Of a DNA stretch of 64,000 bases, positions 3,795 through 26,983 are shown in pieces (position 1 is the first letter of the stretch; every line of letters begins with the position of its first letter). The DNA lies in NCBI RefSeq assembly GCF_000718085.1, contig NZ_JOEC01000001.1, positions 186,001-250,000 on the forward strand. The letters are read 5' to 3'. This DNA is from Mycetocola saprophilus. GTDB lineage: Bacteria; Actinomycetota; Actinomycetes; Actinomycetales; Microbacteriaceae. The position numbers and the translations under genes are program-made. The notes under the pieces were generated by a model. The model worked only from the letters and a program-made list of their open reading frames with translations, did no database searches and was not told the DNA's origin.

Positions 3795-3812
3795 CCGAGA
3801 TCAAACTGTTAC

Positions 3813-3841: not shown

Positions 3842-3884
3842 CCTGAGTGTCGACGCGATGGCGCGTCGACCGACAGGAGGAAGC

Positions 3885-6506: not shown

Positions 6507-6532
6507 CACGATCCGGTTCGCCGCTGAAAACG

Positions 6533-6565
6533 GGAACCCCCGCCGAGTAGCTCGGCGGGGGTTCC
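6533..6565. terminator. Bidirectional intrinsic terminator
   Basis: Perfect 15-bp stem (6533-6547 with 6551-6565) and TAG loop between the convergent GH97 and permease genes. Confidence 0.85.
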
Positions 6566-6584
6566 TGTGTGTGGCGGGATGGTG

Positions 6585-7937
6585 CTACGCGGCTGTGCCC
6601 GCGTCCTTGCCCGAGGCGGCCGGGGCCTCGGTGCCACCGATCAGCGGCGAGGCATCCTCACCGTCGGTGCCGCGCCAGCGACCCAGCACGTTCATCACGT
6701 GGTAGATCACGATGGCGGCGATCGCGCCCAGGGCGATCGAGTTGAACGAGATGCCGTCGAAGGTGAAGACAAACTGTCCCACGGCCACGATCAGCGCGGT
6801 GGCCGCGGTGAACTGGTTCTTGGGCAGCGAGAAGTCGACCTTATTGTCCAGCCAGATCTTCACGCCGACGATACCGATCAGACCGTACAGTGCGGTGGTC
6901 ACGCCACCGAGGACACCGGCGGGGATCGTGGTGATGATCGCGCCGATCTTGGGGGAGAGGCTCAGCAGGATCGCCACGATACCGGCCACCCAGTAGGCGG
7001 CGGTCGAGTAGATCCGGGTTGCGGCCATCACACCGATGTTCTCGCCGTAGGTTGTGGTGGCCGAACCGCCGCCGGAACCGGCAACGATGGTGGCCAGGCC
7101 GTCGGCGAAGAGGGCGCGGCCGGTGAGCTTATTGAGCTTGGGCTGGTCCACCATCTCGGCGACGCCGCGGATGTGGCCCACGTTCTCGGCGATCAGCACA
7201 AGCACCACGGGGATGAAGGCCGGCAGCACGGTCCACAGCCCGGAGTCCAGGAACGGGTTGCCGGGCAGGTGCAGGTCGGGCAGTCCGATCCAGGCGGCCT
7301 CGCCCACGGCCTTGAAGTCGATCTCGCCACGGAACACGGCGAAGACGTAGCCGACGATCACGCCGATGAAGATCGAGAGGCGACCGAGGATGCCCTTGAA
7401 CAGCACGGTCGAGAGGACCACCGCGAACAGGGTGACCAGCGCGGTGATCGGGGCCTTTTCGGCGTTCATCCAGGCCGCCGGGCCCAGGGCAAAACCGATC
7501 AGCGCGACGATGGTTCCGGCAACAACCGGGGGCATGAGCTTATTGATCCAGCCCACACCGGTCCAGTTGACCAGCAGACCGATCAGCGCCAGGGTCAGAC
7601 CCACCACCACGATGCCAAACAGTGCGCTCTCCTGGCCGTGGCTGGCCACCGCCGCCTGAACCGGGGCGATAAACGCGAACGAGGAGCCGAGGTAGCTGGG
7701 AAGCTTGTTCTTGGTGATGAGCAGGAACAGGATGGTTCCGATACCCGAGAAGAGGATGGTGGTGCTCGGCGGGAACCCGGTCAACACGGGGACGAGGAAC
7801 GTCGCACCAAACATTGCAATAACGTGCTGGGCGCCGATTCCGATGGTGCGGGGCCAGCTCAGGCGTTCGCCGGGGGCAACAATTTCGCGGGGCTGAACGG
7901 TTTTTCCGTCGCCATGCAGGGTCCAAGGGAGGGCCAT
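6585..7937 (-). CDS. Uracil/xanthine permease, NCS2 family (UraA-like)
   Basis: Encodes 450 residues with about 12 to 14 membrane segments. The start (LSWPRTIGIGAQHVIAMFGA) and the loop with SGGGSATTTYGENIGVM are typical of the nucleobase:cation symporter-2 (UraA/UapA) family, which takes up uracil or xanthine with protons. Uracil is the more likely substrate from the PxxTTYGENIG-type signature, but xanthine cannot be excluded. It diverges from a purine permease of the AzgA type at 8039, and apt lies a few kilobases away, so the area serves nucleobase salvage. The C-terminal tail after the last helix is polar (GTDGEDASPLIGGTEAP). Confidence 0.9.
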   Translation of the reverse strand: MALPWTLHGDGKTVQPREIVAPGERLSWPRTIGIGAQHVIAMFGATFLVPVLTGFPPSTTILFSGIGTILFLLITKNKLPSYLGSSFAFIAPVQAAVASHGQESALFGIVVVGLTLALIGLLVNWTGVGWINKLMPPVVAGTIVALIGFALGPAAWMNAEKAPITALVTLFAVVLSTVLFKGILGRLSIFIGVIVGYVFAVFRGEIDFKAVGEAAWIGLPDLHLPGNPFLDSGLWTVLPAFIPVVLVLIAENVGHIRGVAEMVDQPKLNKLTGRALFADGLATIVAGSGGGSATTTYGENIGVMAATRIYSTAAYWVAGIVAILLSLSPKIGAIITTIPAGVLGGVTTALYGLIGIVGVKIWLDNKVDFSLPKNQFTAATALIVAVGQFVFTFDGISFNSIALGAIAAIVIYHVMNVLGRWRGTDGEDASPLIGGTEAPAASGKDAGTAA

Positions 7938-8038
7938 GTATTCACTTTCAGGGAGGGTAGGGTATCGCGTGTCGTCAACAGACCTGGCAACACTCTATGC
8001 TATTTCACAGACAAACTTTTTGAGAGGAGCGCCCGCCA

Positions 8039-9481
8039 GTGGCCTCAGAGAACGCATCCAGCGTCAAGAGCAAGATCGACAGGTTTTTTGAGGTAACCAA
8101 GCGAGGTTCCTCCTTCGGCGCGGAAATCCGCGGCGGTCTGGTGACCTTTGTCACCATGGCCTACATCGTGGTTCTGAACCCGATTATTCTCTCCGGTCAC
8201 CCCGATATCGCCGGTAAGGCCCTGGACTTCGCCCAGGTCAGCGCGGTCACCGCCCTGACCGCCGGTGTGATGACCATCCTCTTTGGTGTGGTGGCTCGTC
8301 TGCCCTTCGGTTTCGCCGCGGGCCTCGGGATCAACTCGTTCCTGGCCGTGAGTGTCGTGGGCCAGGTCACCTGGTCCGAGGCCATGGGTCTCGTGGTCAT
8401 CAACGGTGTGATCATCGTGCTGTTGGCCGTGACCGGCCTGCGCCGGATGATCTTCGACGCCGTTCCGGTGCAGCTCAAGGTGGCCATCTCGGTGGGTATC
8501 GGCCTCTTTATCGCGTTCATCGGTTTTGTGAACGCGGGCTTTGTGACCTCGACCGGCCTGGGTTCGCCCCCGGTGGGCCTCGGCAAAGACGGATCGATCA
8601 CGACCGTTCCGACCATCATGTTTGTCATCGCCCTGCTGCTGACCGGAATCCTGGTCGCCCGCAAGGTGCGCGGCGCGCTGCTGATCGGCCTGGTTGTCAG
8701 CACCGTGCTGGCGATCATCGCCGAGGCGATCTTCAAGCTCGGCCCGGCCTTCGTGGACGGCAAGCCGAACCCCGGCGGCTGGGGCCTCACCGTGCCCGAG
8801 GTCACCGGCAGCCTGGTCTCGCTGCCCGACTTTAGCCTGATCGGCGCCTTCAGCTTCGGCGGTTTCGAGCGCCTGGGCATCCTGGCCGGCATCATGGTGG
8901 TCTTCACCCTGGTCTTCTCGAACTTCTTCGACGCGATGGGCACCATGACCGGTCTGTCCAAGGAGGCCGGACTGGCCGATGAGAAGGGCAACTTCCCGCG
9001 TCTGAAGTCGGCCCTGGTGGTTGAGGGCGTCGGAGCGATCGCCGGTGGTGTGACCTCGGGTTCCTCCAACACCGTGTTTGTGGAGTCCGGTGCCGGAATC
9101 GGCGAGGGTGCGCGCACGGGTCTGGCCAACGTGGTCACCGGTCTGCTCTTCCTGCTGGCCGTGTTCTTCACCCCGCTGACCCAGCTGGTGCCCTCCGAGG
9201 TGGCCTCGGCCATGCTGGTGATCGTGGGTGCCATGATGATCAGCCAGATCAAGGAGATCGACTGGACCGAGTACACGGTCGCGCTGCCGGTCTTCCTGAC
9301 CATCACCGTGATGCCGATGACCTACTCGATCGCCAACGGTATCGGCGTGGGCTTTGTCTCCTGGGTTGTGCTGCACGCCCTGGCCGGCAAGATCCGCACC
9401 ATCAGCCCGCTGCTGTGGATCGTCGCGGCCGGCTTTGTGGTGTTCTTCGCCCGCGGACCGATCGAGGCTCTGATCGGCTAA
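8039..9481 (+). CDS. Purine (adenine/guanine/hypoxanthine) permease, AzgA-like
   Basis: Encodes 480 residues from GTG 8039, chosen because GAGAGGAG (8022-8029) lies at good distance. It has 12 or more hydrophobic helices. GGLVTFVTMAYIVVLNP, GFAAGLGINSFLAV, FSNFFDAMGTMTG and SGSSNTVFVESGAGIGEGAR are hallmark stretches of the AzgA branch of NCS2 transporters (proton-coupled uptake of hypoxanthine, guanine or adenine). It diverges from the uracil-type permease; the 100 bp between them must hold both promoters. Imported adenine could be used by the Apt enzyme encoded at 11574. Confidence 0.92.
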   Translation: MASENASSVKSKIDRFFEVTKRGSSFGAEIRGGLVTFVTMAYIVVLNPIILSGHPDIAGKALDFAQVSAVTALTAGVMTILFGVVARLPFGFAAGLGINSFLAVSVVGQVTWSEAMGLVVINGVIIVLLAVTGLRRMIFDAVPVQLKVAISVGIGLFIAFIGFVNAGFVTSTGLGSPPVGLGKDGSITTVPTIMFVIALLLTGILVARKVRGALLIGLVVSTVLAIIAEAIFKLGPAFVDGKPNPGGWGLTVPEVTGSLVSLPDFSLIGAFSFGGFERLGILAGIMVVFTLVFSNFFDAMGTMTGLSKEAGLADEKGNFPRLKSALVVEGVGAIAGGVTSGSSNTVFVESGAGIGEGARTGLANVVTGLLFLLAVFFTPLTQLVPSEVASAMLVIVGAMMISQIKEIDWTEYTVALPVFLTITVMPMTYSIANGIGVGFVSWVVLHALAGKIRTISPLLWIVAAGFVVFFARGPIEALIG

Positions 9482-9489
9482 ATCCGAAC

Positions 9490-9533
9490 AACACACACGG
9501 CGAGGACACCTTTGTTTCCTCGCCGTGTGTGTT
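9490..9533 (+). terminator. Intrinsic terminator after the purine permease
   Basis: Perfect 17-bp stem (9490-9506 with 9517-9533) with a 10-nt loop, 9 bp after the stop codon. The 160 bp that follow up to aspA contain no other gene; TAGGCT at 9603-9608 may be the aspA -10. Confidence 0.85.
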
Positions 9534-9695
9534 TAACGGAATATTGTCTGGGGGTTCAGGAGCTTTCCGCGTCGGGTCGGGCGAGCCGGTGTTTTCGCGG
9601 GCTAGGCTTGAGCCATCACCCTCTCCCACACCGGAGGGCAACGACGCCACAGTGACTATCGCGCGGTATCCCGCAGATATGGAGCAAGGAATAAC

Positions 9696-11138
9696 ATGAC
9701 CACCACCAACGCCACCCGCACCGAAACCGATTCCCTCGGTTCGGTCGAGATCCCGGTCGACGCCTACTGGGGCGTTCACACCGCCCGGGCCCTGGAAAAC
9801 TTCGCGATCACCAAGCGACCCATCTCGGTGTATCCGGACCTGGTCAACGGTCTCGCGGCGGTTAAGCAGGCGGCGGCCCGGGCCAACATGGAGCTGGGCA
9901 CGCTCTCGGCCGAGAAGGGTGACCTGATCGTTCGTGCGTGCCAGAAGGTACTCGATGGCGAGTACCACGACCAGTTCTGCGTGGGCGTGATCCAGGGCGG
10001 TGCCGGCACCTCCACCAATATGAACGCGAACGAGGTCATCACCAACATCGCGCTCGAACTGGCCGGTCGGGAGAAGGGCGACTACGCCTACCTCTCGCCG
10101 ATCGATCACACCAACCGCAGCCAGTCCACCAACGACGTCTACCCGACCTCGATCAAGATCGCGCTGGCCTTCTCGCTGCAGACCCTGCTGACCGAGCTCA
10201 AGGCGCTGCGTGCATCCTTCACCGCCAAGGGGAGCGAGTTCAACCACGTGCTCAAGGTGGGACGTACCCAGCTGCAGGACGCCGTGCCGATGACCCTGGG
10301 CCAGGAATTCCATGGGTTCGCCACGACCCTCGGCGAGGACTACGACCGCCTGCGCGAAACCCTGCCGCTGCTGGCCGAGATCAACCTCGGGGCTACCGCC
10401 ATTGGCACCGGCATCACCGCGGATCCGCGCTATGCCGGCGTGGTGGTGCGTCACCTCAACGAGATCACCGACCTGGGGCTCTCCACCGCCCCGGACCTGG
10501 TCGAGTCCACCTCGGATGTGGGCGGATTCATGTCCTTCTCGGGCACGCTCAAGCGTTCGGCCGTGAAGCTCTCCAAGATCTGCAACGATCTGCGTCTGCT
10601 CTCCTCGGGTCCGCAGGCGGGTCTCGGCGAGATCAACCTGCCCGCGCGTCAGGCGGGATCCTCGATCATGCCGGGCAAGGTCAACCCCGTCATCCCCGAG
10701 GTCGTCAACCAGGTCGCGTTCTCGGTGGTCGGCGCGGATATGACCGTCACCATGGCGGTTGAGGGTGGCCAGCTGCAGCTCAACGCGTTTGAGCCGGTGA
10801 TCGCGCACTCGCTGCTGCAGTCGATCACCTGGATGGCGCAGGCCTGCAACACCCTGCGGATCAACTGCATCGACGGCATCACCGCCAACGAGGAGCGCCT
10901 GGAAACCATGGTGGGGACCTCGGTGGGTGTGGTCACCGCACTGACCCCGTTCATCGGTTATGCCGCCGCCGCGGCGCTGGCCAAGACCGCCCTGCTGACC
11001 GGTCGCAACGTCGCCGACCTGGTGGTCGAGGCGGGGCTGATGACTCGTGAAGAGGTGACCAAGCAGATCGCTCCGGCTCGTCTGTCGGGTATGGAGGCCA
11101 TCACCAGCGCGATCCCGATCATTTCGCCGACCGCTTAA
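9696..11138 (+). CDS. aspA: Aspartate ammonia-lyase
   Basis: Encodes 480 residues of the fumarase/aspartase superfamily, which convert L-aspartate to fumarate and ammonia. The three family regions are all present: GAGTSTNMNANEVITN, SQSTNDVYPTS, and the catalytic loop GSSIMPGKVNPVIPEVVNQ. The AspA start VDAYWGVHTARALENF separates it from fumarase C. Upstream, AGGAAT lies shortly before the ATG. The gene stands alone between two terminators. Class II fumarase is the alternative; the NMNANEV and YWGVHT signatures favour aspartase. Confidence 0.9.
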   Translation: MTTTNATRTETDSLGSVEIPVDAYWGVHTARALENFAITKRPISVYPDLVNGLAAVKQAAARANMELGTLSAEKGDLIVRACQKVLDGEYHDQFCVGVIQGGAGTSTNMNANEVITNIALELAGREKGDYAYLSPIDHTNRSQSTNDVYPTSIKIALAFSLQTLLTELKALRASFTAKGSEFNHVLKVGRTQLQDAVPMTLGQEFHGFATTLGEDYDRLRETLPLLAEINLGATAIGTGITADPRYAGVVVRHLNEITDLGLSTAPDLVESTSDVGGFMSFSGTLKRSAVKLSKICNDLRLLSSGPQAGLGEINLPARQAGSSIMPGKVNPVIPEVVNQVAFSVVGADMTVTMAVEGGQLQLNAFEPVIAHSLLQSITWMAQACNTLRINCIDGITANEERLETMVGTSVGVVTALTPFIGYAAAAALAKTALLTGRNVADLVVEAGLMTREEVTKQIAPARLSGMEAITSAIPIISPTA

Positions 11139-11147
11139 GTTCATGTG

Positions 11148-11187
11148 CCGCGTCCGGTTCGGGTTTTGAAATCCGGGCCGGACGCGG
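11148..11187 (+). terminator. Intrinsic terminator after aspA
   Basis: CCGCGTCCGG (11148-11157) pairs with CCGGACGCGG (11178-11187), with a few further inner pairs, followed by a short T run. It occupies most of the 61-bp gap before the FKBP gene. Confidence 0.75.
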
Positions 11188-11199
11188 TTTGATTAACCC

Positions 11200-11568
11200 A
11201 TGACCAACAACACCAAGCCTGAAATCGACGCTCCCGTCGGTCCCGCGCCCACCGAACTGCAGATCGTTGACCTCGAGGTCGGCACCGGCGATGAGGCTCA
11301 GGCCTCCTCGACCGTTGACGTTCACTACCTCGGCGTCTCGTTCGACTCCGGCGAGGAGTTCGACTCCTCCTGGAGCCGTGGACAGTCCATCAACTTCCCC
11401 CTGCGCAACCTCATCTCGGGTTGGCAGGAAGGTATCCCCGGCATGAAGGTTGGCGGCCGCCGCCAGCTGACCGTGCCGCCGCACCTGGCCTACGGCCCCG
11501 CCGGTTCGGGTCACCAGCTCTCGGGCCAGACCCTGATCTTCGTGATCGACCTGCTGGGTGTGAAGTAA
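11200..11568 (+). CDS. FKBP-type peptidyl-prolyl cis-trans isomerase
   Basis: Encodes 122 residues, a single FKBP domain with no signal peptide, so a cytoplasmic folding helper that isomerises Xaa-Pro bonds. Visible family motifs are VDVHYLGV, GEEFDSSW (the usual G..FDSS), GWQEGIPGMKVGGRRQL and PPHLAYGPAGSG, with an aliphatic end LIFVIDLLGVK. Its stop is only 5 bp before the apt start, so the two genes are probably co-transcribed. Confidence 0.95.
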   Translation: MTNNTKPEIDAPVGPAPTELQIVDLEVGTGDEAQASSTVDVHYLGVSFDSGEEFDSSWSRGQSINFPLRNLISGWQEGIPGMKVGGRRQLTVPPHLAYGPAGSGHQLSGQTLIFVIDLLGVK

Positions 11569-11573
11569 GCACC

Positions 11574-12095
11574 TTGACCGCCGCCGATCTGGTGCTCGCG
11601 CACAGCGTCACCATTCCCGACTTTCCCAAGCCGGGTATCCTGTTTCGTGACCTCACCCCGGTCTTCAGCCACGCGGACGCGTTCCGCGCGGTCATCGACG
11701 AGTTTGCCGAGCGCTTTGCCGGCCAGTTCGATGCTGTAGCCGGTGTGGAAGCACGCGGATTCCTGCTGTCCTCGGCGCTTGCCTACGCCACCAACACCCC
11801 GCTGATCGCGGTGCGTAAGGCCGGCAAGCTGCCCGGTGAGGTGATCCGTGAGGATTACCAGCTGGAGTACGGCACCGCGTCGCTTGAACTGCGTCCCGGG
11901 CAGCTGCCCGAGGGCAGCCGGGTACTCATCCTCGATGATGTGCTCGCAACCGGTGGCTCCTGCCACGCGTCCGGTCGCCTGATTGAGCGCGCCGGCTACG
12001 TGGTTGCCGGGTTTGGTCTGGTGCTGGAACTGGCCGATATGACCGGTCGGGAGCGTCTGGCGGGTTACCCGCTGCACGCGATCATGAGCGAATAG
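11574..12095 (+). CDS. apt: Adenine phosphoribosyltransferase
   Basis: Encodes 173 residues from TTG 11574, just downstream of the FKBP stop; no clear ribosome site is seen, so translation may be coupled. Apt converts adenine and PRPP to AMP. Family features are IPDFPKPGILFRDLTPV near the N-terminus, the GVEARGFLL strand, IAVRKAGKLPG and the PRPP-binding loop VLILDDVLATGGS (about residues 116-128). The open frame continues upstream inside the FKBP gene, but that part has no similarity to Apt. It fits the purine permease at 8039. Confidence 0.92.
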   Translation: MTAADLVLAHSVTIPDFPKPGILFRDLTPVFSHADAFRAVIDEFAERFAGQFDAVAGVEARGFLLSSALAYATNTPLIAVRKAGKLPGEVIREDYQLEYGTASLELRPGQLPEGSRVLILDDVLATGGSCHASGRLIERAGYVVAGFGLVLELADMTGRERLAGYPLHAIMSE

Positions 12096-12108
12096 GGTTT
12101 TCACCTTC

Positions 12109-12142
12109 AAAACGAGCCTCGCCTTCGGGCGGGGCTCGTTTT
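12109..12142 (+). terminator. Intrinsic terminator after apt
   Basis: A 15-bp stem (12109-12123 with 12128-12142, one G-T pair) with a TTCG tetraloop and T-rich tail. Confidence 0.88.
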
Positions 12143-12261
12143 GTGTGTCCACGGCCCCGCTACGCACGGATCGACGTGCCTGAACATCAAGCAGATGCCC
12201 AGGGTTATCTGGGTTCCCCGATGCCATACCGGTCCCTACTCTGATTCCAGGGAGGGTGGTG

Positions 12262-12738
12262 ATGAGTATGGCACAGCGCATCTATATCGACGCCGCGGGG
12301 ATCAAAAACCTGGGCACCAGAATCGGCGATGCCGCTGCGGTCTCGGACGGCGAATTCGCGATCCCTGCGCGCGGCGGAGACCCCGACCTCTCCCGCGCCG
12401 GTGCACGTTTTGCCCGGGCTTTTACCGAAGATTTGGCCCGGCTGCGAGCCGATGCCGAGGAGTTCCGCGGGCGCATCCTGCTGACGGCCGAGCACTTCGA
12501 CACCCATGAACAGGCCGTGGACACATCGGTGCGGGCGATCCTTCAGGGACTGATGCTTTCGCGCGCACCGGGAGCGCCGGCGGGGGTACCGGCAGAGCAG
12601 GGCGGGCGCTCACCATTCACGCCGGGCATCGCGGTGCCCGATGCCGCTGCGCCCGGTGGTACCGGCCTCGGTGCTGCCGACCCTGGGACCACGGTCCCCG
12701 GTACCGCGGGCGAAGACTCCTCGGGGCGGCGCGGCTAG
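12262..12738 (+). CDS. Small ESX/WXG100-like protein, likely partner of the downstream toxin
   Basis: Encodes 158 residues. ATG 12262 is chosen for GGAGGG just upstream (12251-12256); GTG 12256 and ATG 12268 are alternatives. The first 100 residues look helical (DLSRAGARFARAFTEDLARL and following, with heptad-like spacing) as in type VII secretion (ESX) helper proteins; no WxG motif is visible. The last 60 residues are Gly/Pro/Ala-rich and low in complexity. Its TAG overlaps the GTG of the toxin gene (TAGTG), so the two are translationally coupled. A role as secretion partner or chaperone is inferred from position and helix pattern only. Confidence 0.6.
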   Translation: MSMAQRIYIDAAGIKNLGTRIGDAAAVSDGEFAIPARGGDPDLSRAGARFARAFTEDLARLRADAEEFRGRILLTAEHFDTHEQAVDTSVRAILQGLMLSRAPGAPAGVPAEQGGRSPFTPGIAVPDAAAPGGTGLGAADPGTTVPGTAGEDSSGRRG

Positions 12739-13922
12739 TGTCCGAGCAGCCGGATGTGACACTCGCCGAATCTCGGGATCCCGAGGTCCTGATCCCCGGG
12801 GATCCGGCGGGACTGCGCCGGGTCATCGAGGACTGGCGTGCCCATGCGACTTCGGCCGGAGAAACGGCCGTCCTCCTGGAGCGGATCAGCACCGAGGCCG
12901 TATGGGAGGGCGAGTCGGCGGATGCCTTCACCGCCAAGTTTGCGCCGTATCCCCGGCGCTGGCGTGCCGCCGAAACACAGACCTTGGCCGGGGCGAACGC
13001 GCTCGAACAATACACCGACACCCTGGAATGGGCACGCGCGCGGGTGGCCGCCGCCCCGGAAGCTGCGGCGCAGGTGGCCGAGCCCGCGCCCGATGACGAG
13101 GCGCAGGCACTGCTGGAGGACATCCAGGCGCGTGTCGCCGAGGACGCCAACATCTGCGCCCAAACCCTGACCGGCCTTGCCGACCGGGTGGCCTCCACCG
13201 ACACATTTTGGCCCGCGCTCACGGCAGCCGGGGGCCTGATCGGCGAGATGATGCTGAGTGGACTCCGGGACGGCGTCAACGCGGTGGGCTCGGTCGGAAA
13301 CGCGGCCATGGAGGATCCGGCGGCGCTCACCGAGGCGGGGATCGGACTCGGTTTACTCGTGGTGGGGATCGCCGGGGAGGTCGGCGGCGGTGCCCTGGAT
13401 GTCACCGGCATCGGGGCGGTGGGCGGAATCCCGCTGAACATCGCATCCGCCGGGGCGATCGGGGCCGGGGCGGGCCTGATCGGAGCCGGCATCGGCAGCC
13501 TGGTGACCGACGCTACCGGCAGCGCCGGCGTCGTGATCTGGGAAAGCTCGGGCATCGACCGCGGCGATAAACGCGACGAGGCCGGGCACTACACCGGCAA
13601 CAACGGCGGGGCAAATGGCCCAGCAAGCGATAAGGAGCGTCAGGGGCTTGCCGAGGTCGGAACGGACCAGGGTGCGGATGTGATCGATCGGAAGATCCGC
13701 TCGACGGTGCCCGGGGGTAACCCCAACGGTCGCTATTACGACGGGCTGATTCGCAATGCCGACGGCACCTATACGGCAATAGAGGTCAAGAGCGGCGGTG
13801 CCCGGTTGACCTCCAGCCAGCGGATTTTCGACGGAATCGTCAGCCCGGGCTCCCCGGCAACCGCGACCCTGAACGGGGTCTCCATCAAAATCATCGGCGT
13901 CATCTTGAAACGGGTTCCGTAA
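12738..13922 (+). CDS. Polymorphic toxin with WXG-type N-terminus and nuclease-like C-terminus
   Basis: Encodes 394 residues, GTG start. Residues 20-170 are helical with the W-x-G turn AVWEGESADAF (W56-E-G58), like ESX-secreted toxins. A Gly/Ala/Ile-rich hydrophobic stretch covers about 195-265, as in many contact-dependent toxins. A Gly/Asn-rich linker (GHYTGNNGGANG) leads to the C-terminal domain, where Asp335 and IEVKSGG (E349-x-K351) form a PD-(D/E)xK-like signature, suggesting a DNase. It sits between an ESX-like partner and candidate immunity genes, the standard order for such loci. Nuclease activity and type VII export are inferred; no secretion genes are in the window. Confidence 0.7.
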   Translation: MSEQPDVTLAESRDPEVLIPGDPAGLRRVIEDWRAHATSAGETAVLLERISTEAVWEGESADAFTAKFAPYPRRWRAAETQTLAGANALEQYTDTLEWARARVAAAPEAAAQVAEPAPDDEAQALLEDIQARVAEDANICAQTLTGLADRVASTDTFWPALTAAGGLIGEMMLSGLRDGVNAVGSVGNAAMEDPAALTEAGIGLGLLVVGIAGEVGGGALDVTGIGAVGGIPLNIASAGAIGAGAGLIGAGIGSLVTDATGSAGVVIWESSGIDRGDKRDEAGHYTGNNGGANGPASDKERQGLAEVGTDQGADVIDRKIRSTVPGGNPNGRYYDGLIRNADGTYTAIEVKSGGARLTSSQRIFDGIVSPGSPATATLNGVSIKIIGVILKRVP

Positions 13923-13924
13923 CC

Positions 13925-14428
13925 ATGAACGATACACATCTGGTCACCACAAACGGCGCCTCCGTCGGCCCGCTCACCAGCGTCAGCAGGCCGTACGCCG
14001 CGCAGATTCGACGATTCCTTGATCTGCTGGACGGCGACTCCCGCTGGGCGTTCTCGCTCTGGCGTGGGCCCGAGGGGGTGCACCTGATGGACATCGATCT
14101 CGATCGGGTTCCGCAGTCGTACATGCAGAGCGCGGGAAGCGCCCAGGCGATGGTCATCGAGGTGAGATTCATCGAGGATGACGGGATCGCCCGGCGCTAT
14201 GCGGTGGGACGCCCGCACGGCGACTATACGGGGGAACCCGCCGTCTCGATCCCGTACCGTTCGGATGAGGCGGCGGTGTGGGTCTATCCCAGCGAGGTGT
14301 TTGATGCGGCGGAGGCTGCGGGCATCTACGACCACTATTTCCACACCGATCGGGTTCCAGCCGACTACGTTTTACGGCCGCTGGATACCCATGGGCCCGG
14401 CCAACACACTTCAGGGAGCACATCATGA
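13925..14428 (+). CDS. Candidate immunity protein (single domain)
   Basis: Encodes 167 residues, starting 2 bp after the toxin stop. It has no signal peptide or membrane segment, so is probably cytoplasmic, acidic and suited to bind the toxin tail. Its body (LLDGDSRWAFSLWRGPEGVH, YMQSAGSAQ, EVRFIEDDGIARRYAVG, VYPSEVFDAAEAAGIYDHYF, RVPADYVLR) is repeated twice in the next gene. The position directly behind a polymorphic toxin argues for immunity. The fold recalls Imm1-type immunity proteins, but I cannot confirm the family. Its TGA overlaps the next ATG. Confidence 0.6.
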   Translation: MNDTHLVTTNGASVGPLTSVSRPYAAQIRRFLDLLDGDSRWAFSLWRGPEGVHLMDIDLDRVPQSYMQSAGSAQAMVIEVRFIEDDGIARRYAVGRPHGDYTGEPAVSIPYRSDEAAVWVYPSEVFDAAEAAGIYDHYFHTDRVPADYVLRPLDTHGPGQHTSGSTS

Positions 14429-15480
14429 GCCACATCACCCACCTCGTGAAAGCCAATGCGCAGGACACCGCGGCCCTCAGCGACCGAGATCAGCCCCTCG
14501 GCGACGAGATCCGGCGGCTGCTGCGCCGCCTCGACGGCGACGACCAATCGACGATCCTGCTGTTTCGTCGCCCTCCCGGAGTCCACTATCTGGACCTGAT
14601 CTGGGGCACTGAGACCGCCGCGTACCTGCAGAGCGCCGGTGCACGTGGGCGGCTGACGATAGACATTCGGTTTGTGGACGATGAGGGTCGGGCGCGGCAG
14701 TACCTGCTGGGACACCGCGGTGGACGCTATCGCGGGGACCCCGACACGGAGCTTTCCTTCTTCGGTGGGCGTGGGGGCACCAGCGTGTATGCCCACGAGG
14801 TGTTTGAGGCCGAGGAGGCCGCGGTGGTGTACTCCCACTACATCGCCACCGGGTGGATCCCCGATGGGTTTCTGCTCCGGGAGGTGCGGTGGCCACGCGT
14901 GGAGGGAGCTCCGGAAGTTGTCGAGTCACGCGCCATCCGACCCGATCCTCAGCGCCAGTTTGAGCTGGCGCGCGGGCGGGAACCCGAACCCTCGGCCACC
15001 GCATACTGGGTGCAAACCAACGCGGAACCCGAGGAACCCATCGATGGCCCGGGCCTGGAACCCGAGGACAAGGTCGGGTTCGGACTGGAAAAGCTTGATG
15101 GCGACTGGCGCTGGGGATTCCGGCTGCGACGCAACGAGCCCGAGGCACCGTTGCGCCCGATCGACCCCGATTTTCACGGACCGCGCTACCTCGCGGCGCT
15201 CGGTTCAGCGAGCGCCCTGACCCTCTTTGCGCGCCTGGTGGATGCCGACGGCGCGACGCATCTGGTGGCGATCGGTCGCACCGATCCCCGCTTCTTCGGG
15301 GACTATTTTGAGGGTGCGCCCCCGCTGAGCCTGACCTTCAACGGGGGACCAGGACGGATTGAGGTTTTCCCCGGTGAGCTGTTCACCTCCGCCGAGGCCT
15401 TCGAGATCTTTCGGCACTATGCCCGCACCACCCGTCTCCCCGATGGCTTCCACCTGCGCAGGCTTCCCACCGGCGACTAG
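14425..15480 (+). CDS. Candidate immunity protein with two tandem copies of the domain
   Basis: Encodes 351 residues, coupled by ATGA to the preceding gene. Two copies of the same domain are visible: residues about 20-155 (RRLDGDDQSTILL, YLQSAGARGR, VYAHEVFEAEEAAVVYSHY, GFLLREV) and about 208-348 (KLDGDWRWGFRL, YLAALGSASAL, VFPGELFTSAEAFEIFRHY, GFHLRRL), joined by a charged linker. With the preceding gene the operon has three copies. They are clearly divergent from each other, so the duplication is not recent. Probable role: neutralising this toxin or related ones. Confidence 0.58.
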   Translation: MSHITHLVKANAQDTAALSDRDQPLGDEIRRLLRRLDGDDQSTILLFRRPPGVHYLDLIWGTETAAYLQSAGARGRLTIDIRFVDDEGRARQYLLGHRGGRYRGDPDTELSFFGGRGGTSVYAHEVFEAEEAAVVYSHYIATGWIPDGFLLREVRWPRVEGAPEVVESRAIRPDPQRQFELARGREPEPSATAYWVQTNAEPEEPIDGPGLEPEDKVGFGLEKLDGDWRWGFRLRRNEPEAPLRPIDPDFHGPRYLAALGSASALTLFARLVDADGATHLVAIGRTDPRFFGDYFEGAPPLSLTFNGGPGRIEVFPGELFTSAEAFEIFRHYARTTRLPDGFHLRRLPTGD

Positions 15481-15484
15481 ACGC

Positions 15485-15518
15485 AAACGGCTCGGGTTCG
15501 AAAGAACCCGAGCCGTTT
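15485..15518. terminator. Bidirectional intrinsic terminator
   Basis: Perfect 15-bp stem (15485-15499 with 15504-15518), GAAA loop and T run, between the immunity gene and the convergent acetyltransferase gene. Confidence 0.9.
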
Positions 15519-15529
15519 TGCCGTCCGAT

Positions 15530-16564
15530 CTAGAACTCGCGCACGAGCGAAACCGATTTTGCCTCGGGGGCGAAGCCGACGGACTGGTAGAGACGCAGTG
15601 CACCGGTGGGGCTCTCCGAGTCCACATCCAGGGCGGCGCGTTCGAGGCCCTCGGCCTTCAGGTTGCGCAGCACCTGAGCCAGTAGTGACTTGGCCAGGCC
15701 CTTGCCTCGCCAGTCGCGTCGGGTCGCCACCAGATCGATGTAGCCATAGGTGTAGCCGGCGGCCTCCCACTGGGCGGGATCCACCGAGACGATGACCAGC
15801 GCGGCCACCTCGTTCTCGGGGGTGACCGCGAGAGCCGACAGGTCCCCGCGCAGGGTCGAGACCGCGCCGTACTTCTCCCAATCTTCCCGGTTGGTCGGCT
15901 GGGATCCCCAGTGATCGCGGAACGAATCGTTGAAGGCCAGGCGGGTGGCCTCGGAGAGATTGTCGGTGAGCGATTCCAATCGAACATCCGCGTGCAGCGG
16001 AAGCTCGGGGATGGGCGCGCTCAGATCCCGGGTGAGCTCCATCCACCAGCGCCGTTCCCCGTACCCGCGAGAGGTGAGGAATCCGCGCGGGCTCGTCGCG
16101 TGTTCGGAGGCCCCGGTGGAGAACCACCCGGGCACGCTCAGCTCGGAGGCCGCCAGGTGCTGAGCGGCGCGAGCCTCCTGCCAATCGAGCAGCGCGGTAC
16201 CAAGTCCTCGGCCGCGGTGATCGGGATGCACGGCCCCCGGGATATGCGCCTTGACCACGCTGCTGGCCTCGGGCTCGGCGTGGGAGGTGCCGTAGGCGAC
16301 AACGGTGCCGTCGGTGGTTTCGGCGAGCAGGGAATCGGTTTCGGGATCAAAACCCGAGGCGGCAAAGTCCACGGTGAGGGCTTCCAACGTGGTGACGTGG
16401 CGCGGATCGTCCACGGCCTCCACGGCGCGATCAAGTTCCAGGATCGCGGGCAGGTCGGCACTGGTGGCCGGACGCCAGGTGACGCCCTCGAAGCCGGTGG
16501 GCAGCGAGAGCTGGGTGGGTGCGGTGATCCGCTGGTTCAACGGGAGCATGCTTTCCGTAGTCAT
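15530..16564 (-). CDS. Tandem GNAT acetyltransferase
   Basis: Encodes 344 residues with two GNAT domains. The first (about 28-165) contains the acetyl-CoA loop VHPDHRGRGLGTAL; the second (about 185-340) contains VATRRDWRGKGLAKSLL and ends with the usual LRLYQSVGFAPE strand. The two-domain plan resembles mycothiol synthase (MshD) and related actinobacterial enzymes, but the overall sequence looks more like the general tandem-GNAT group, so the substrate is open. A possible -10 (AAGAAT) lies about 6 nt before the ATG on the minus strand, and no strong ribosome site is seen. Confidence 0.85.
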   Translation of the reverse strand: MTTESMLPLNQRITAPTQLSLPTGFEGVTWRPATSADLPAILELDRAVEAVDDPRHVTTLEALTVDFAASGFDPETDSLLAETTDGTVVAYGTSHAEPEASSVVKAHIPGAVHPDHRGRGLGTALLDWQEARAAQHLAASELSVPGWFSTGASEHATSPRGFLTSRGYGERRWWMELTRDLSAPIPELPLHADVRLESLTDNLSEATRLAFNDSFRDHWGSQPTNREDWEKYGAVSTLRGDLSALAVTPENEVAALVIVSVDPAQWEAAGYTYGYIDLVATRRDWRGKGLAKSLLAQVLRNLKAEGLERAALDVDSESPTGALRLYQSVGFAPEAKSVSLVREF

Positions 16565-21386: not shown

Positions 21387-21827
21387 TTAGGCGTTGTCGT
21401 CACGCGCTTCTTGATTCCTGACCGGTCTGGTGATCTGCTTGGCCAGGCAGTGCGGGATGCCCGCGGCCGCCTGCGACTGGTCGCGGCGATACACGCTGGG
21501 AGCCACCCCGACCAGCTCGGTAAAGCGGGTGCTGAAGGTCCCGAGCGACGTAAATCCCACGGCAAAACACACCTCGGTGACGCTGTGGTCCCCGCGGCGC
21601 AGCAGGGTCATGGCCCGCTCGATCCGCCGGGTCATCAGGTACGAATACGGCGATTCCCCGTACACCCGGCGAAACTCCCGGCTGAGGTGTCCGGCGGACA
21701 TGTGTTCGCCGCGGGCAAGCTCCTCGACGTTGAGTGGTTGGGCGTGCTCGCGGTCGATCCGGTCGCGCACCCGACGCATCGTGACGATGTCGCGCAGCCG
21801 CTTCTGCTCCTCGGGTGTGCCGCTCAT
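21387..21827 (-). CDS. AraC family transcriptional regulator (DNA-binding domain only)
   Basis: Encodes 146 residues from ATG 21827, preceded by AAGGAT; the frame is open upstream to 21929, but that part is not conserved-looking. It consists almost only of the two helix-turn-helix motifs of AraC/XylS proteins: LNVEELARGEHMSAGHLSRE and VTEVCFAVGFTSLGTFSTRF followed by GVAPSVYR. No sensor domain is present. It probably regulates the adjacent VOC gene. The last 30 residues are a polar tail. Confidence 0.9.
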   Translation of the reverse strand: MSGTPEEQKRLRDIVTMRRVRDRIDREHAQPLNVEELARGEHMSAGHLSREFRRVYGESPYSYLMTRRIERAMTLLRRGDHSVTEVCFAVGFTSLGTFSTRFTELVGVAPSVYRRDQSQAAAGIPHCLAKQITRPVRNQEARDDNA

Positions 21828-21973
21828 ACCGTCATCCTTACACGCCCACATATCGAACGTCATAAAAACCCGGGCGTTTCGGTTGCGGACGTGGCGCACT
21901 TCCCGCCAAAATTCAGCTATCCCGCGCACGGGCGTGGATGGAAATGGTGGACTGAATCGTGGGGGACCGGAGC

Positions 21974-23206
21974 ATGCAGCAGCAGGCAGCCTCGAATCGG
22001 CGACCCACGGACGAGTATCCGCGCGGTCCTCTGGGGCTCGGCGTTCGCGTTCCCGGAACCGGAAATCCCGCCCGACTGTTTCTTGCCTGTCTATTTGTCC
22101 CGTTGACCGGGGCGAGCGCGCTGCTCTGGTTCTTCGCCGAGGAGCCCGGAAATCCGCTGGCCTTTCTCGGGACCCACGGGATCGGTGTGGTCTGGGTGGC
22201 CATGCTGCTCCTTGTGCTGCGCGCGCTGATCGGCGGTGTCTGGGTTCGTGGCGACGCGGTCCTGGTGCGCTCCTGGTGGCTCACCCGACGCTTCGCTCGG
22301 ATCGATATCACCCGGGTGTCGGTGATCGGCGGGCCCTCCGTGCGGCTGGCCGCGCTGGAATTTGGGTTGGGGACGGCGCAGAACTCGCGGCCGATGGCGG
22401 GGACCGTCCTGTTTGGTCGTCGAATCCCCGAGGCGCTCCTCTTCCTCGCCGAAGCGTGCGACCTACCGCCGCTGATCGCGGGTTTTCCCGATCCGGTGCG
22501 CGAGCGTGCGGTGGCTCAAAACGTGCGCGGGGTTCTGGATGGGCCTCGGGCCGCGGAGAGCAGGCTTGTTCGTCCCCGTCCGGCCGGCCCGGCACGCTGG
22601 CATCGGGTGCGCGGAACCGGCACGCTCTCGGGGCTGCAAACCCTGCCCTGGGCGGGCCTGTTATTCCTGATCGGGTGGGATCTGTGTTCCGGTGCCGTAT
22701 CGCACCAGGCGGTGACCGTCGGATCGACCGCGTTGGGCTGGTTGTGTCTTGCCCCCGCGATCTTCCTGGTGGTGCGCTTTTTCACCACCGGGCTCTTCAT
22801 CCGCGGCGACACCGTGCTGATGTTCCGGCTGGGATTCCCCACGATCATTCGTTTTGGCGAGGCCACCCGCGTGGATGTTGCACCCGTCCTGCTCCCCTGG
22901 GGGCAGACCCTGTCCATCACCCGGTCGGGTCGCGCGATCACCCTGCTGCGGCACGCGCATTTTCCCGCGCACTCGGCACGGATTCGGGACGAGGTGAGCG
23001 CGGCGCTCGGCCTCCCGCTCAGCACCGACCCAGGCGCGGGTACCCGGGCCGACTTCACCGCGACTCCCATCACCGAACCGTCTTCCGGTATCGAACGGTC
23101 TCTCGGCACCGAACGGTCTCTCGGCACCGAACAGCCTTCCGGCCCCAACGTGGCTCCGGGCACCCACGCATCTCCCGGCACTCACCCGGATGGAGTATCC
23201 GCATGA
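21974..23206 (+). CDS. Membrane protein A1 of a duplicated module (two PH-like halves)
   Basis: Function not recognised. Encodes 410 residues from ATG 21974 (GTG 21959 is possible). It has two similar halves, each with two hydrophobic segments (about 33-53 and 66-84; about 225-245 and 255-275) followed by a beta-rich cytoplasmic stretch: GGVWVRGDAVLVRSWWLTRR in the first half, GLFIRGDTVLMFRLGFPTII and GEATRVDVAPVLLPWGQTL in the second. Two helices plus this strand pattern recall bacterial PH-like (bPH) membrane proteins. The C-terminus is disordered and holds an 18-bp DNA repeat. It is paralogous to the gene at 24546 and overlaps the next gene by ATGA. Confidence 0.75.
   Translation: MQQQAASNRRPTDEYPRGPLGLGVRVPGTGNPARLFLACLFVPLTGASALLWFFAEEPGNPLAFLGTHGIGVVWVAMLLLVLRALIGGVWVRGDAVLVRSWWLTRRFARIDITRVSVIGGPSVRLAALEFGLGTAQNSRPMAGTVLFGRRIPEALLFLAEACDLPPLIAGFPDPVRERAVAQNVRGVLDGPRAAESRLVRPRPAGPARWHRVRGTGTLSGLQTLPWAGLLFLIGWDLCSGAVSHQAVTVGSTALGWLCLAPAIFLVVRFFTTGLFIRGDTVLMFRLGFPTIIRFGEATRVDVAPVLLPWGQTLSITRSGRAITLLRHAHFPAHSARIRDEVSAALGLPLSTDPGAGTRADFTATPITEPSSGIERSLGTERSLGTEQPSGPNVAPGTHASPGTHPDGVSA
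23092..23127 (+). repeat. 18-bp tandem repeat in the A1 coding tail
   Basis: Two exact copies of CGAACGGTCTCTCGGCAC (23092-23109, 23110-23127), with degenerate copies on both sides. They encode ERSLGT-like units in the disordered C-terminus. Because 18 is a multiple of 3, copy-number change keeps the frame. Confidence 0.75.
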
Positions 23207-24540
23207 GCCCCGTCGCAGCGCCGCCGCGCGGCCCCGGCTACGTTCCCCATGTTGTGCGAATCCAGGGCACCGGTGCCCTCTATCGCATTCTCCTCACCCT
23301 GGCCCTGCTTGGGCTGATCATCAGCTTCGTGGTTGTCCCGCGGGGAACCTGGTTCCTGCCCGACTGGGTGGCCATTCTCTGCGTGCTCGCGGGAGTGTGG
23401 GTGCTCGCTCGCGGGGTCTGGATCACCCGCTCTCACGTGGTGCTGGTGAACATCTGGGGCGTCTTGGTGTTTAGGCGTTCGCACATTCGCCGGGTGTACG
23501 TGGATACGCGGGTGATCTGGGTGTCTCGATTCGCCCAGGAGCGGACCTTCCTCGGGTTGGAGATCGAGGGACGCCGACGTCCGGTGCGGGTCGAAGCGGC
23601 CTTCGTGGAGGAAGACTCGGTGCTCGACGCCTATCAGGAGCTGGTCTGGCGACTGACCGACAACCTGGGCGACCCGGTATTTGGACGCGATGGTGCCGGA
23701 AAACCGGTACTCCTGAGCCCTGCCTCGTTCGCTGCGCCGCCCGCCCGGGACGGGTGGGAACAGGATTCGCCGGTGCTGCCCGTGGACCTCGACACCGCCC
23801 GCGCCCTCATCCCATTGCAGGTCGAGCTGTCGTCGGACGCCTGGACGGATCCGCAAGCGGGGGTTCAGACGCAGCGGATTGCCCACCTTCCGCGGGTGCG
23901 TCCGCTCATCATCCAGCACCGAGACCTCGCGCTCGCCGTGGTCCGAACGCTGCTGCCCGGGTATTTTGATGCGGCCGGTGTGGCGAGCGCCACGGAGATT
24001 CTCGAATACGAGCCCAGCCTGACCGCGGTGGAGCGGGCACTGGCCAGCCGCGGTCTCGGCCTGAGGGTTGTTCCCTCGGGCTGGGTGCTGTGCCCGGCGG
24101 ACACCCAGGGGTCCGTGCGGATTCCGACCTCCCCGTCGCCGGAGACGCTGATCGCCGAGCTGCACGCGGAGCGGCTGGCTCGTATCGACGGGCTCAGCCC
24201 GATCTGGGACGAGACCGAGGCGAAGGCGATCGAGGCGACCAGCGCGTTGCTGCGCCCGATCCCGCAGGCCGAACAGGGCCTGATTGCCGCCACGTTCCTG
24301 CTGGCCGAGCGTGACGACCTGGACCGCTTTCGCCTGGCGATCGTTGATGCCGATACCGCGATCATCGAACGGGAGCGCGATGAGGACTGGATGCTCAACA
24401 CCCTGATCGACGACGGCTATGCGGCCCCCACCCTCTGGGACTATGTGGCCACACTCGGTGCCGAAGCCGTGCCCGTGGCGATGTCCCGCCCCCATCTTTC
24501 ACCCATCCCGCGCACGGTCGTGGAACCTCAGGAGGACTAG
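23203..24540 (+). CDS. Membrane protein B1 of a duplicated module
   Basis: Function not recognised. Encodes 445 residues from ATG 23203, which overlaps the A1 stop (ATGA). The frame is open far upstream, but this overlap and the similarity to B2 fix the start. Two N-terminal helices (about 27-46, 54-70) are followed by a PH-like beta stretch (RGVWITRSHVVLVNIWGVLV, then FRRSHIRRVYVDTRVIW). The C-terminal 250 residues form a soluble domain shared with B2: LIIQHRDLALAVVRTLLPG, ERALASRGLGLRVVPSGW and a WDYV end. The module order A1-B1-A2-B2 implies that A and B products work together, probably at the membrane. Confidence 0.75.
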   Translation: MSPVAAPPRGPGYVPHVVRIQGTGALYRILLTLALLGLIISFVVVPRGTWFLPDWVAILCVLAGVWVLARGVWITRSHVVLVNIWGVLVFRRSHIRRVYVDTRVIWVSRFAQERTFLGLEIEGRRRPVRVEAAFVEEDSVLDAYQELVWRLTDNLGDPVFGRDGAGKPVLLSPASFAAPPARDGWEQDSPVLPVDLDTARALIPLQVELSSDAWTDPQAGVQTQRIAHLPRVRPLIIQHRDLALAVVRTLLPGYFDAAGVASATEILEYEPSLTAVERALASRGLGLRVVPSGWVLCPADTQGSVRIPTSPSPETLIAELHAERLARIDGLSPIWDETEAKAIEATSALLRPIPQAEQGLIAATFLLAERDDLDRFRLAIVDADTAIIERERDEDWMLNTLIDDGYAAPTLWDYVATLGAEAVPVAMSRPHLSPIPRTVVEPQED

Positions 24541-24545
24541 AACAC

Positions 24546-25655
24546 GTGGTTGACAATCTGTCCGCACCGCCGAGCATCGCGCGCACGCCGCGCGGGGTCG
24601 CCTGGCTGGGGCGTCGAATCCCGGGGACCGGTGCGCCGGCGCGGCTGGGTCTGCTGGTGACGTATCTGTTTTTTGTGGGAATTTTCTGCCTGATGGCCAT
24701 TGACTATGAGGATCCCGAGACGATTCTTGACACGGTTCAGGGTGGGCTGTTCGCCCTCCTCCCGGTGTTTGCGCCGCTCATCCTGCGCGCCCCGTTTGTC
24801 GGGGTGTGGGATGCCGGCGACCTGATCCTGGTGCGCTCATGGTTCTCCACCCAGCGATTCGCCAAGGCGGATATCGTCCGTGTCTCGACCACGGCGCACT
24901 CGGCCTGGCGGGTGCTGGCGTGGGGCTCCCCGCGGGATCGGGTGCGCTCGCTCACCCTGGGGCTGGGCGTCTCGAACGCTCGGCTAATCTTCCCCACGGC
25001 GGCAGTGCGGCGAGGACGCGCCCGCACCGCGCTGAGCGCGCTCGCCGCGGCGCTGGGGCTGCCCTCCCGGGTGATGGAGTTTCCTGGAGCCCTCGATGAT
25101 CTGGTTATCGGCACGGACGTACGAGAAGCCACCCACGCCATCGACACCGCACCGGCCACCCACCTGATGAGCCCGCCGCCGGTGGGCTCACACTGGCGGC
25201 GGGTGAGCGGGACCGGGCTCATGTCACTGTTCTTCGCCCTGCCGCTGTCCGCGCTGGCGGGCGTCCTGGCTTGGAGCGCGATCGTGGGGGATCCCAACGT
25301 GCTTGATGATGATGGCGACGTTCTTGTCTCGTACCCCCTGGGTATTTTCTTCCTGTTCTGCATGGTCGCCTGTGCCCTCTCCGTCCTGGGCAGCGGGATC
25401 TTTGTGCGCGGGGGCACCGTGCTACTTCTGCGTTTTGGTTTCCCCACGATCATCAACCACGGGGAAGCCACCCGGGTGGACCGGGTGGGCAGCATGCTGC
25501 CCTGGGGCGATTCGATCCGAATCACCACCCGCACCGGCCCGATCCGGATGTGGATGCTCACGAGCTTTAGCGGCGATACCCGGCGCATCCGCACCGAGAT
25601 TAGTCGGGCCCTGGGCCTGCTGACCACCGATTCCACGCGAAAGGACCGAGTATGA
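24546..25655 (+). CDS. Membrane protein A2 of a duplicated module
   Basis: Function not recognised. Encodes 369 residues from GTG 24546, with AGGAGG at 24530-24535 inside the end of B1. It is a paralogue of A1: same start pattern (GRRIPGTGAPARLGL against GVRVPGTGNPARLFL), GVWDAGDLILVRSWFSTQRF, and in the second half GIFVRGGTVLLLRFGFPTII and GEATRVDRVGSMLPWGDSI. It lacks the long disordered tail of A1. Four hydrophobic segments are predicted. Its TGA overlaps the B2 start (ATGA). Confidence 0.75.
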   Translation: MVDNLSAPPSIARTPRGVAWLGRRIPGTGAPARLGLLVTYLFFVGIFCLMAIDYEDPETILDTVQGGLFALLPVFAPLILRAPFVGVWDAGDLILVRSWFSTQRFAKADIVRVSTTAHSAWRVLAWGSPRDRVRSLTLGLGVSNARLIFPTAAVRRGRARTALSALAAALGLPSRVMEFPGALDDLVIGTDVREATHAIDTAPATHLMSPPPVGSHWRRVSGTGLMSLFFALPLSALAGVLAWSAIVGDPNVLDDDGDVLVSYPLGIFFLFCMVACALSVLGSGIFVRGGTVLLLRFGFPTIINHGEATRVDRVGSMLPWGDSIRITTRTGPIRMWMLTSFSGDTRRIRTEISRALGLLTTDSTRKDRV

Positions 25656-26983
25656 GTGAGGGCACAACCGGCACGCACCGCGGTCCCACCTTTGAGCAGC
25701 GGTTTGTGCGCATTCGCCGCTCGGGATCCTTTTTCCGGCCCTTCGTGATCGCGATTCCCGTATCCGTGGCGATCGGCATTCAGAACTCCGAGGGTGTGCC
25801 CGGCTGGTGGAGCGTTGTCGCGGTATTGGTCGCGCTGATCCTGCTCCTGCGGGGCGTGTGGGTCACCCGGAGACACGTGATCATCATGAACCTCTGGGGT
25901 CCGCGGATTGTGCGCCGATCACGCGTTCGCGGCGTCGGGATCGAAAAGAGCGAGGTGTGGTTTGCCAATTCACCGGGCTACACGCGTCCGATGCTTGTGC
26001 TCGCACTGGAGGGGCGCACCAGCCCGGTCGGCGGTGAGGGCGGTTTTGTTCCCGCGCGCGACGCGCAGGCGGCCCTCGATGAGCTGCGCTGGCGTCTCGG
26101 GGCACACCTGGTAGACCCGATCGTGGCGGTCCCCGAATCCGGCACCGCACAGCGGCGTGGGCTGCGTGTGCTCCCGGCGGATCTTCCGCTTCCCTCGGGT
26201 CTCACCCCGGTGGAGAACCCCGCGGTGCTCCTGCCATACCGCTATGAAAATCCGGCCGCGCGCGTCTCCACCCAGGGAGTCGTGGCCAACGAGCTGATGT
26301 ACCTCGGCGACTATTACAAGATGCCCGTGGCGCAGACACAGGCGACCGGGGAGGCCTGGGTGAAATCCGATGAGCTCCTGGATTCCTCACGCATCCCGCG
26401 GCTTCCGGCGCTTCTCCCGCTCGTGATCCGGCACCGGGACATGGCGCTCGCCGTGACCCGCACCCTGCTACCCGGGCGGATGGATGGTGCGGGACCGCTC
26501 GGTGCCGAGGACCTTTTTGATCGTGAACCGCGCGGAATCGAAGTGGACCGCGCCCTGGCCGGAACCGGGCTGGCCCTCGCCCTGGTGCCGGAGGGGTGGG
26601 AGCTTGCCTCGCGCGAACACTCGGCTGCCGTGGATCCCGAGAGCCTGCGTGAGCCCGAGCCGATCCTCCTGGAGGTGTTGCATCGCGAGCTCGCCGATGG
26701 GTGGGCACGCAGCCGGGCTGCGGATCTGCGTGCGGTGTTTCGATCGGACCGGGACGAGTTCTCCCAGCTGCCGGTGGAGGCGCGTGGACTGGTGGCCGCG
26801 GCCCACCTGATGCGCAACCAGCCGCGGTACCTCGCGCTGGTGTCGAGTGAGACCGTGCTGCGTCGACAGGACACCGGAGACGCCTGGGTGCTGGAGCGCC
26901 TGGCCGCCTCGGGATTCGCCGCGGACGCACTCTGGGACTACGCGCGAGCCCGGGACCCTCGCCGCGAAAGGGTCGGGGAATAA
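25652..26983 (+). CDS. Membrane protein B2 of a duplicated module
   Basis: Function not recognised. Encodes 443 residues, coupled by ATGA to A2. It follows the B1 plan: two helices near the N-terminus, RGVWVTRRHVIIMNLWGPRI and a beta-rich stretch, then a soluble domain with LVIRHRDMALAVTRTLLPG, DRALAGTGLALALVPEGW and ALWDYARAR at the end. The strongest A/B conservation lies just after the membrane helices and in the LPG motif. No catalytic residues can be named. About 15 bp after the stop, a promoter for the next gene begins, so the operon ends here. Confidence 0.75.
   Translation: MSEGTTGTHRGPTFEQRFVRIRRSGSFFRPFVIAIPVSVAIGIQNSEGVPGWWSVVAVLVALILLLRGVWVTRRHVIIMNLWGPRIVRRSRVRGVGIEKSEVWFANSPGYTRPMLVLALEGRTSPVGGEGGFVPARDAQAALDELRWRLGAHLVDPIVAVPESGTAQRRGLRVLPADLPLPSGLTPVENPAVLLPYRYENPAARVSTQGVVANELMYLGDYYKMPVAQTQATGEAWVKSDELLDSSRIPRLPALLPLVIRHRDMALAVTRTLLPGRMDGAGPLGAEDLFDREPRGIEVDRALAGTGLALALVPEGWELASREHSAAVDPESLREPEPILLEVLHRELADGWARSRAADLRAVFRSDRDEFSQLPVEARGLVAAAHLMRNQPRYLALVSSETVLRRQDTGDAWVLERLAASGFAADALWDYARARDPRRERVGE

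Follow-up and report, generated by a model that had tools for sequence, protein, structure and literature searches.

What are the four closely packed genes, encoding two kinds of membrane protein in alternation, that lie within a 64,000-nucleotide stretch of the Mycetocola saprophilus genome (assembly GCF_000718085.1, contig NZ_JOEC01000001.1, positions 186,001 to 250,000 of the forward strand; hereafter the window), and what could such a repeated pair be doing in the envelope? Here we describe this locus, named A1-B1-A2-B2 after its two protein types. Very probably, both proteins are built of PH-like membrane units, and B carries an extra C-terminal domain. The reading that we favour, still a tentative one, is that the locus is a genus-restricted, duplicated variant of the paired bacterial PH membrane proteins that would act as a scaffold by which the envelope is protected or peptides are handled; this function itself is proposed with somewhat greater reserve.

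A preliminary description, made from the sequence, had reported an A-B-A'-B' layout with tight ATGA coupling, and both points are borne out: the four open reading frames (ORFs) lie where it had placed them (Table 1), all intact and in the same direction, and within both pairs the genes overlap by ATGA (A1/B1 at 23203-23206, A2/B2 at 25652-25655), the gap between the B1 stop and the GTG of A2 being 5 bp. By hydropathy, B1 and B2 each present two hydrophobic stretches at the N-terminus. Both halves of A2 contain two such stretches, and A1 has two in its first half and one above threshold in the second (merged windows 246-277), so that A amounts to about four hydrophobic segments in two units. 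Furthermore, both A and B have a conserved R-x-x-G-T-G stretch ahead of their first helix.

The alternating genes are paralogues. A1 and A2 are identical at 132 of 360 aligned positions (37%, E 4e-47), B1 and B2 at 133 of 435 (31%, E 4e-54), as the preliminary description had anticipated, and the spacing from start to start is 2572 bp between A1 and A2 and 2449 bp between B1 and B2. Moreover, a short stretch upstream of A1 is similar to the 3' end of B1: the two align with a score of 42, a value that none of 2000 dinucleotide shuffles reaches (maximum 32), and the next best separate place for the B tail in the window scan scores 26. The window repeat D2 also picks out this stretch, and its equivalent in M. 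lacteus scores 34 against the 3' end of B1 of that species, the shuffle control covering the window pair only. We read it as the probable tail of an older B copy. Because both pairs are paralogous and this remnant stands upstream of A1, the A-B unit would have been duplicated in tandem as a whole, which was also the earlier proposal.

To which family do A and B belong? No curated family claims either of them. Scans of the four proteins gave nothing above cut-off in Pfam and NCBIfam (0 of 4) and nothing of weight in PHROGs and PADLOC, where the best match, to BrxB in PADLOC (13.3 bits, E 0.016, 42 residues; no cut-off is given for PADLOC rows), is judged to be due to chance; a PDB sequence search with the A and B alignments gave no match at E 10. 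PF03703 (bPH_2) matches none of the four proteins, and bPH_6 (PF10756) matches residues 91-125 of A2 weakly, with 15.5 bits, below its cut-off of 22, A1, B1 and B2 being without a bPH_6 match at E 5 or better.

Profile comparison goes further. Across the order, the A profile found matches in 35 of 297 genomes at E 10, mainly short and at chance level; eight places in genomes other than its own reach an E value of 0.00122 or below. Among them, seven are small actinobacterial membrane proteins with an A-like stretch (L018, L019, L020, L022, L023, L024 and L025), which make up what is called here the single-unit set; the eighth, L021, was taken for an unrelated enzyme and dropped. The B profile found matches in 20 of 297 genomes, outside its own genome all at E 0.02 or worse. 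Six single-unit relatives were scanned for bPH_6: L024 passes (24.6 bits), four are below the cut-off and L020 has no match. When profiles were aligned with hhalign, the N-terminal half of A matched the single-unit set with a probability of 98.4% (E 9.8e-15), which is an inflated figure, the N-terminus of B, by which the set had not been chosen, with 89.0% (E 2.3e-6), and the C-terminal half of A with 26.8%. The set itself matched a bPH_6 set of 29 sequences with 87.3% (E 3.8e-6) and a bPH_2 set of 13 sequences with 27.1%, and reversed-profile controls gave 1.8, 1.3, 0.5 and 0.9%. These comparisons support a probable relationship of the A N-terminal half and the B N-terminus with small actinobacterial membrane proteins that would grade into bPH_6, in agreement with the kinship to bacterial PH (bPH) proteins guessed earlier; they point weakly to the C-terminal half of A as a further bPH relative.

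Table 1. Features of the A1-B1-A2-B2 locus (window coordinates; 2-TM, two transmembrane helices; aa, amino acids)
Feature	Position	Strand	Description
A1	21974-23206	+	410 aa; two successive predicted 2-TM/PH-like units, then low-complexity tail
A1 N-terminal unit	22019-22483	+	Residues ~16-170, borders approximate; A N-halves profile-match small actinobacterial 2-TM proteins
A1 C-terminal unit	22586-23023	+	Residues ~205-350, borders approximate; weakly suggested (26.8% against single-unit set)
B1	23203-24540	+	445 aa; single predicted 2-TM/PH-like unit, then soluble C-terminal domain
A2	24546-25655	+	369 aa, GTG start; A1 paralogue
B2	25652-26983	+	443 aa; B1 paralogue
B2 N-terminal 2-TM/PH-like unit	25700-26119	+	Residues ~17-156; low-confidence model: two helices, six strands, helix
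B2 soluble C-terminal domain	26420-26851	+	Residues ~257-400, portion matching other B-like proteins; hhalign 89.6% against B3/B4/B6 set
B-tail-like remnant before A1	21890-21938	+	Resembles 3' end of B1 (24474-24524)
Segment without counterpart at G098 site	21844-26976	.	Flanked by AraC-type and luciferase-like genes

The predicted soluble C-terminal domain of B is seen to recur in other B-like genes, met only in Mycetocola. Two of these genes lie on contig C2 of the same genome (L142:3275-4600 and about 4660-6072), in a second cluster (L142, G000:C2:990000-1006000, about 3275-15951) near genes for LemA and an M48 peptidase (HtpX-like). A search with B1, B2 and these two proteins found at least five proteins, from Mycetocola wherever named. 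An extended B profile was matched at full length in 2 of 398 genomes of the family, this one and M. lacteus, and at E 0.1 in any way in 22 of 398, the matches beyond those two genomes being partial; in a further genome of the genus, G098, a gene at L171:7733-9088 matches both the N-part (24.0 bits) and the C-part (9.8 bits) of the B profile. The C-domain of B1 and B2 matched a pooled five-row set of the others (B3/B4/B6) with a probability given in Table 1 (E 1.9e-6; reversed control 0.1%), and the single sets with 34.9% (B3), 10.1% (B4) and 4.5% (B6); because these single-set matches are low, the link rests on the pooled profile together with the equal architecture. None of the libraries used (Pfam, NCBIfam, PHROGs, PADLOC) names a family for the domain, which, as defined here, occurs in two or more clusters in a single genus. 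A winged-helix reading, prompted by its pattern of helix and hairpin, was a passing idea that we do not claim.

The second cluster, mostly common to this genome and M. lacteus, has further contents: a third 2-TM/PH-like protein with a different C-terminus (10596-12062), single-unit proteins at 7359-7859 and 8655-9278, small proteins related to one another, of which there are five or more (X1-X5; the five pairs compared by hhalign give 88.6-99.7%), and a protein at L142:9294-10469 that matches leucine-rich repeats weakly, with 15.5 bits against a cut-off of 27.

How far does the pair extend among bacteria? A search through some 5.8 billion protein sequences, with matches taken from a candidate list of near 8000 under a length limit (in the A search about 203 aa upward, which excluded single-unit relatives), found at least four relatives of B and at least two of A, one of them the window's own; those named come from M. 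lacteus, Mycetocola sp. JXN-3 and Mycetocola sp. BIGb0189. Within the family, 2 of 249 genomes have B1, and within Mycetocola 2 of 4 have A2, in both cases the genome under study included. Full-length A-B relatives occur only in Mycetocola among the matches listed and the genomes searched. Of the conserved pairing put forward in the preliminary description, the adjacency stands, as B adjoins A wherever A is found; but the pairs are found only in Mycetocola, and B-like genes without A exist in the second cluster and in G098. A literature search found no paper on the A or B genes, which is not proof that none exists.

In M. lacteus, all four genes stand in the same order and at the same place as in the window. 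In G098, the AraC-type and luciferase-like genes lie side by side and the cassette is absent, homology with the window ending at 21843 and restarting at 26977. G098 presents an empty site, and gain and loss of the cassette both fit this pattern of presence and absence. G017, of the same genus, is also without the cassette and, within the 10 kb compared, without the VOC and AraC-type genes. As regards these surroundings, the AraC-type gene (21387-21929) probably starts near 21840 rather than at the GTG that opens the longest ORF, a start further inside being indicated because homology with G098 ends at 21843. An extra stretch in G098 (L079:5848-9273), between the MFS gene and the first luciferase-like gene, encodes an ABC ATPase, two MacB-like permeases and a small, secreted-looking protein for which Pfam gave nothing at E 0.01, a layout that we take to resemble bacteriocin loci. 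The promoter scan gave no site, and the terminator-like sites (6 observed, 3.3 +/- 1.9 in shuffles) were not used as evidence.

Between the window and M. lacteus, the ratio of non-synonymous to synonymous substitution rates (dN/dS) is 0.43 for A1, 0.29 for B1, 0.15 for A2 and 0.29 for B2, and ranges from 0.007 to 0.312 in seven neighbouring genes. The four genes are under purifying selection and change faster than most of their neighbours. A pseudogene or decaying copy was rejected, as dN/dS is below 0.5 and the frames are open in this genome as well as in M. lacteus.

What, then, would such a pair do? We infer a full bPH unit in the C-terminal half of A, a complex of A with B, and its topology, ligand and function, along the following lines; the preliminary description had already suggested such a complex, perhaps with a role in envelope homeostasis. 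A would be made of two units in succession, each of which joins a transmembrane hairpin to a bPH-like beta domain, and B of one such unit carrying the additional soluble domain. By way of hairpins and bPH domains, A and B could form a hetero-oligomeric scaffold in the cytoplasmic membrane, the cytosolic side of which would bear the bPH domains together with the C-domain of B. This scaffold might shield the envelope from membrane-active peptides or lipids, or pass them on, as proposed for YdbS/YdbT-type pairs. For the latter, PMC8657885 describes ydbS (two transmembrane helices, one PHb2) and ydbT (six helices, three PHb2) as adjacent genes, and their counterparts DdE and DdF as required for the export of enterocin DD14, mutants without them being poisoned from within by the peptide; in addition, a table of PMC8144471 credits YdbST with protection against amylocyclicin. 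M. lacteus inactivates the Pseudomonas lipopeptide orfamide A, according to PMC11009677; because of this, membrane-active lipopeptides would be a sensible first class of candidate ligands, with no link of A-B to orfamide A so far. Going further still, the B C-domain might act in the cytosol as a sensor or effector domain of a new kind, and A-B might be a movable unit, acquired and duplicated, which the genus has made into a device of self-protection against, or export of, the membrane-active peptides or lipopeptides that it meets around mushrooms and algae; this extension we consider improbable.

Several observations weigh against the favoured reading. Since L021 stands among the top eight places of the A profile, chance matches reach the level of E 0.00122, and the value for the A N-terminal half is partly selected because the A profile itself chose the single-unit set. 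In direct comparison with the bPH_6 set, this half reaches 45.4%, the B N-terminus 1.3% and the A C-terminal half 0.4%; with the bPH_2 (YdbS) set of 13 sequences, the values are 1.9% for the A N-half, 1.1% for the A C-half and 0.9% for the B N-terminus. The two halves of A, described before as similar, match each other with a local probability of 12.2% (E 0.0024) and differ markedly in their match to the single-unit set, so that their likeness is weak. The AlphaFold models, made from alignments of 6 (A2) and 7 (B2) rows, are poor, with a mean predicted local distance difference test score (pLDDT) of 39.7 for A2 and 44.1 for B2; Foldseek gave no match at E 0.001 or better, for the B model in PDB and a viral set or for the A model in PDB, and nothing useful for the latter. 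Antibiotic resistance by YdbT is said in PMC8657885 to be without experimental backing, contrary to PMC8144471. Finally, matches of lactococcin 972 type are found in all four Mycetocola genomes (four in this one, two in M. lacteus, one each in G098 and G017), and a link to this type of bacteriocin was rejected, as A-B is present in two of the four. The four matches of this genome lie on contigs C1, C2 and C3, each above cut-off.

A different proposal is drawn from the B2 model. The B2 model shows, at low confidence, two helices, six strands and a helix, followed by a C-domain of helices and a hairpin, and its top Foldseek match is a chain of 8kei (probability 0.99, E 0.019), ahead of the bacterial PH domains 3dcx (0.89) and 3hsa (0.93). 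This ranking also counts towards the favoured reading, as do the profile comparisons, the ATGA overlaps and the purifying selection. The entry 8kei is NADPH oxidase 2 with p22phox and EROS, and the matched chain D is presumably EROS. A and B could then play the part that EROS has for NADPH oxidase, serving some membrane-bound enzyme or transporter as assembly chaperones or regulatory subunits and not as a means of protection, and the R-x-x-G-T-G stretch could, in our reading, be the split-off first strand of a hairpin-in-PH domain; PMC9767466 depicts EROS as a PH domain into which two membrane helices are inserted, PIGH being similar. We regard this as unlikely, given the low quality of the B model and a cassette that includes no client, the adjacent MFS carrier and luciferase-like enzymes being present also in the cassette-free G098 and G017. 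Still less probable, in our judgement, is that the cassette forms one metabolic locus with these neighbours, AraC-type regulator, MFS carrier and luciferase-like monooxygenases: they share a place in the window and M. lacteus, but G098 keeps them in the same order without the cassette, which makes this very improbable.

Two other explanations are to be considered. Both the cassette and the second cluster might be immunity-type gene arrays against the toxins of rivals, A-B being a duplicated immunity pair. This would suit the restriction of a duplicated unit to two of four genomes of one genus, the rates of change above those of most flanks, and the B-like proteins amid repeated small membrane proteins in the second cluster. 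However, reading of the gene list revealed no toxin gene beside the cassette, the PADLOC and PHROGs scans gave no match of weight, and the rate of the KDPG aldolase-like flank (0.312) is on a level with those of B1 and B2; we hold this explanation to be rather improbable. To the same low degree we credit the idea of lineage-specific housekeeping membrane proteins that sense lipids or envelope stress, with neither peptide nor toxin involved. Proteins of the bPH_2 type occur in 37 of 39 genomes of the order, and this genome has its own canonical pair of YdbS/YdbT type, which suggests that such proteins do general work; but two of the four Mycetocola genomes dispense with the cassette, so that the genus as a whole does not need it.

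Returning to the favoured reading, of a duplicated variant of paired bPH membrane proteins, the known systems can be set beside it. EROS and PIGH, in which a membrane hairpin is associated with a PH domain (PMC9767466), would share this feature with A and B, and presumably include the best fold match of the B model; unlike A and B, they are eukaryotic. A and B have no PDB sequence match, and we know of no counterpart of the B C-domain in those proteins. The small bPH_6 membrane proteins resemble A and B in the 2-TM hairpin followed by a PH-like stretch, and the A N-half and B would be linked to them through the single-unit relatives; they differ in having a single unit, in place of two units or an added domain, and none of A1, B1, A2 and B2 reaches the family cut-off. 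With YdbS/YdbT (bPH_2, Firmicutes and Actinobacteria, including DdE/DdF), the likeness is one of arrangement, an adjacent co-directional pair of one single-unit and one multi-unit protein, the C-unit of A being weakly supported. In contrast, A has one unit fewer than YdbT (two against three), B bears a soluble C-terminal domain, the A-B pair is duplicated, and profile probabilities with bPH_2 stay below 2%; the canonical bPH_2 pair of this genome lies apart, at G000:C2:418422-420196. If the reading is true, the locus would provide a compact, duplicated and naturally present or absent pair through which the role of paired bacterial PH membrane proteins could be addressed, a question that YdbS/YdbT have left open.

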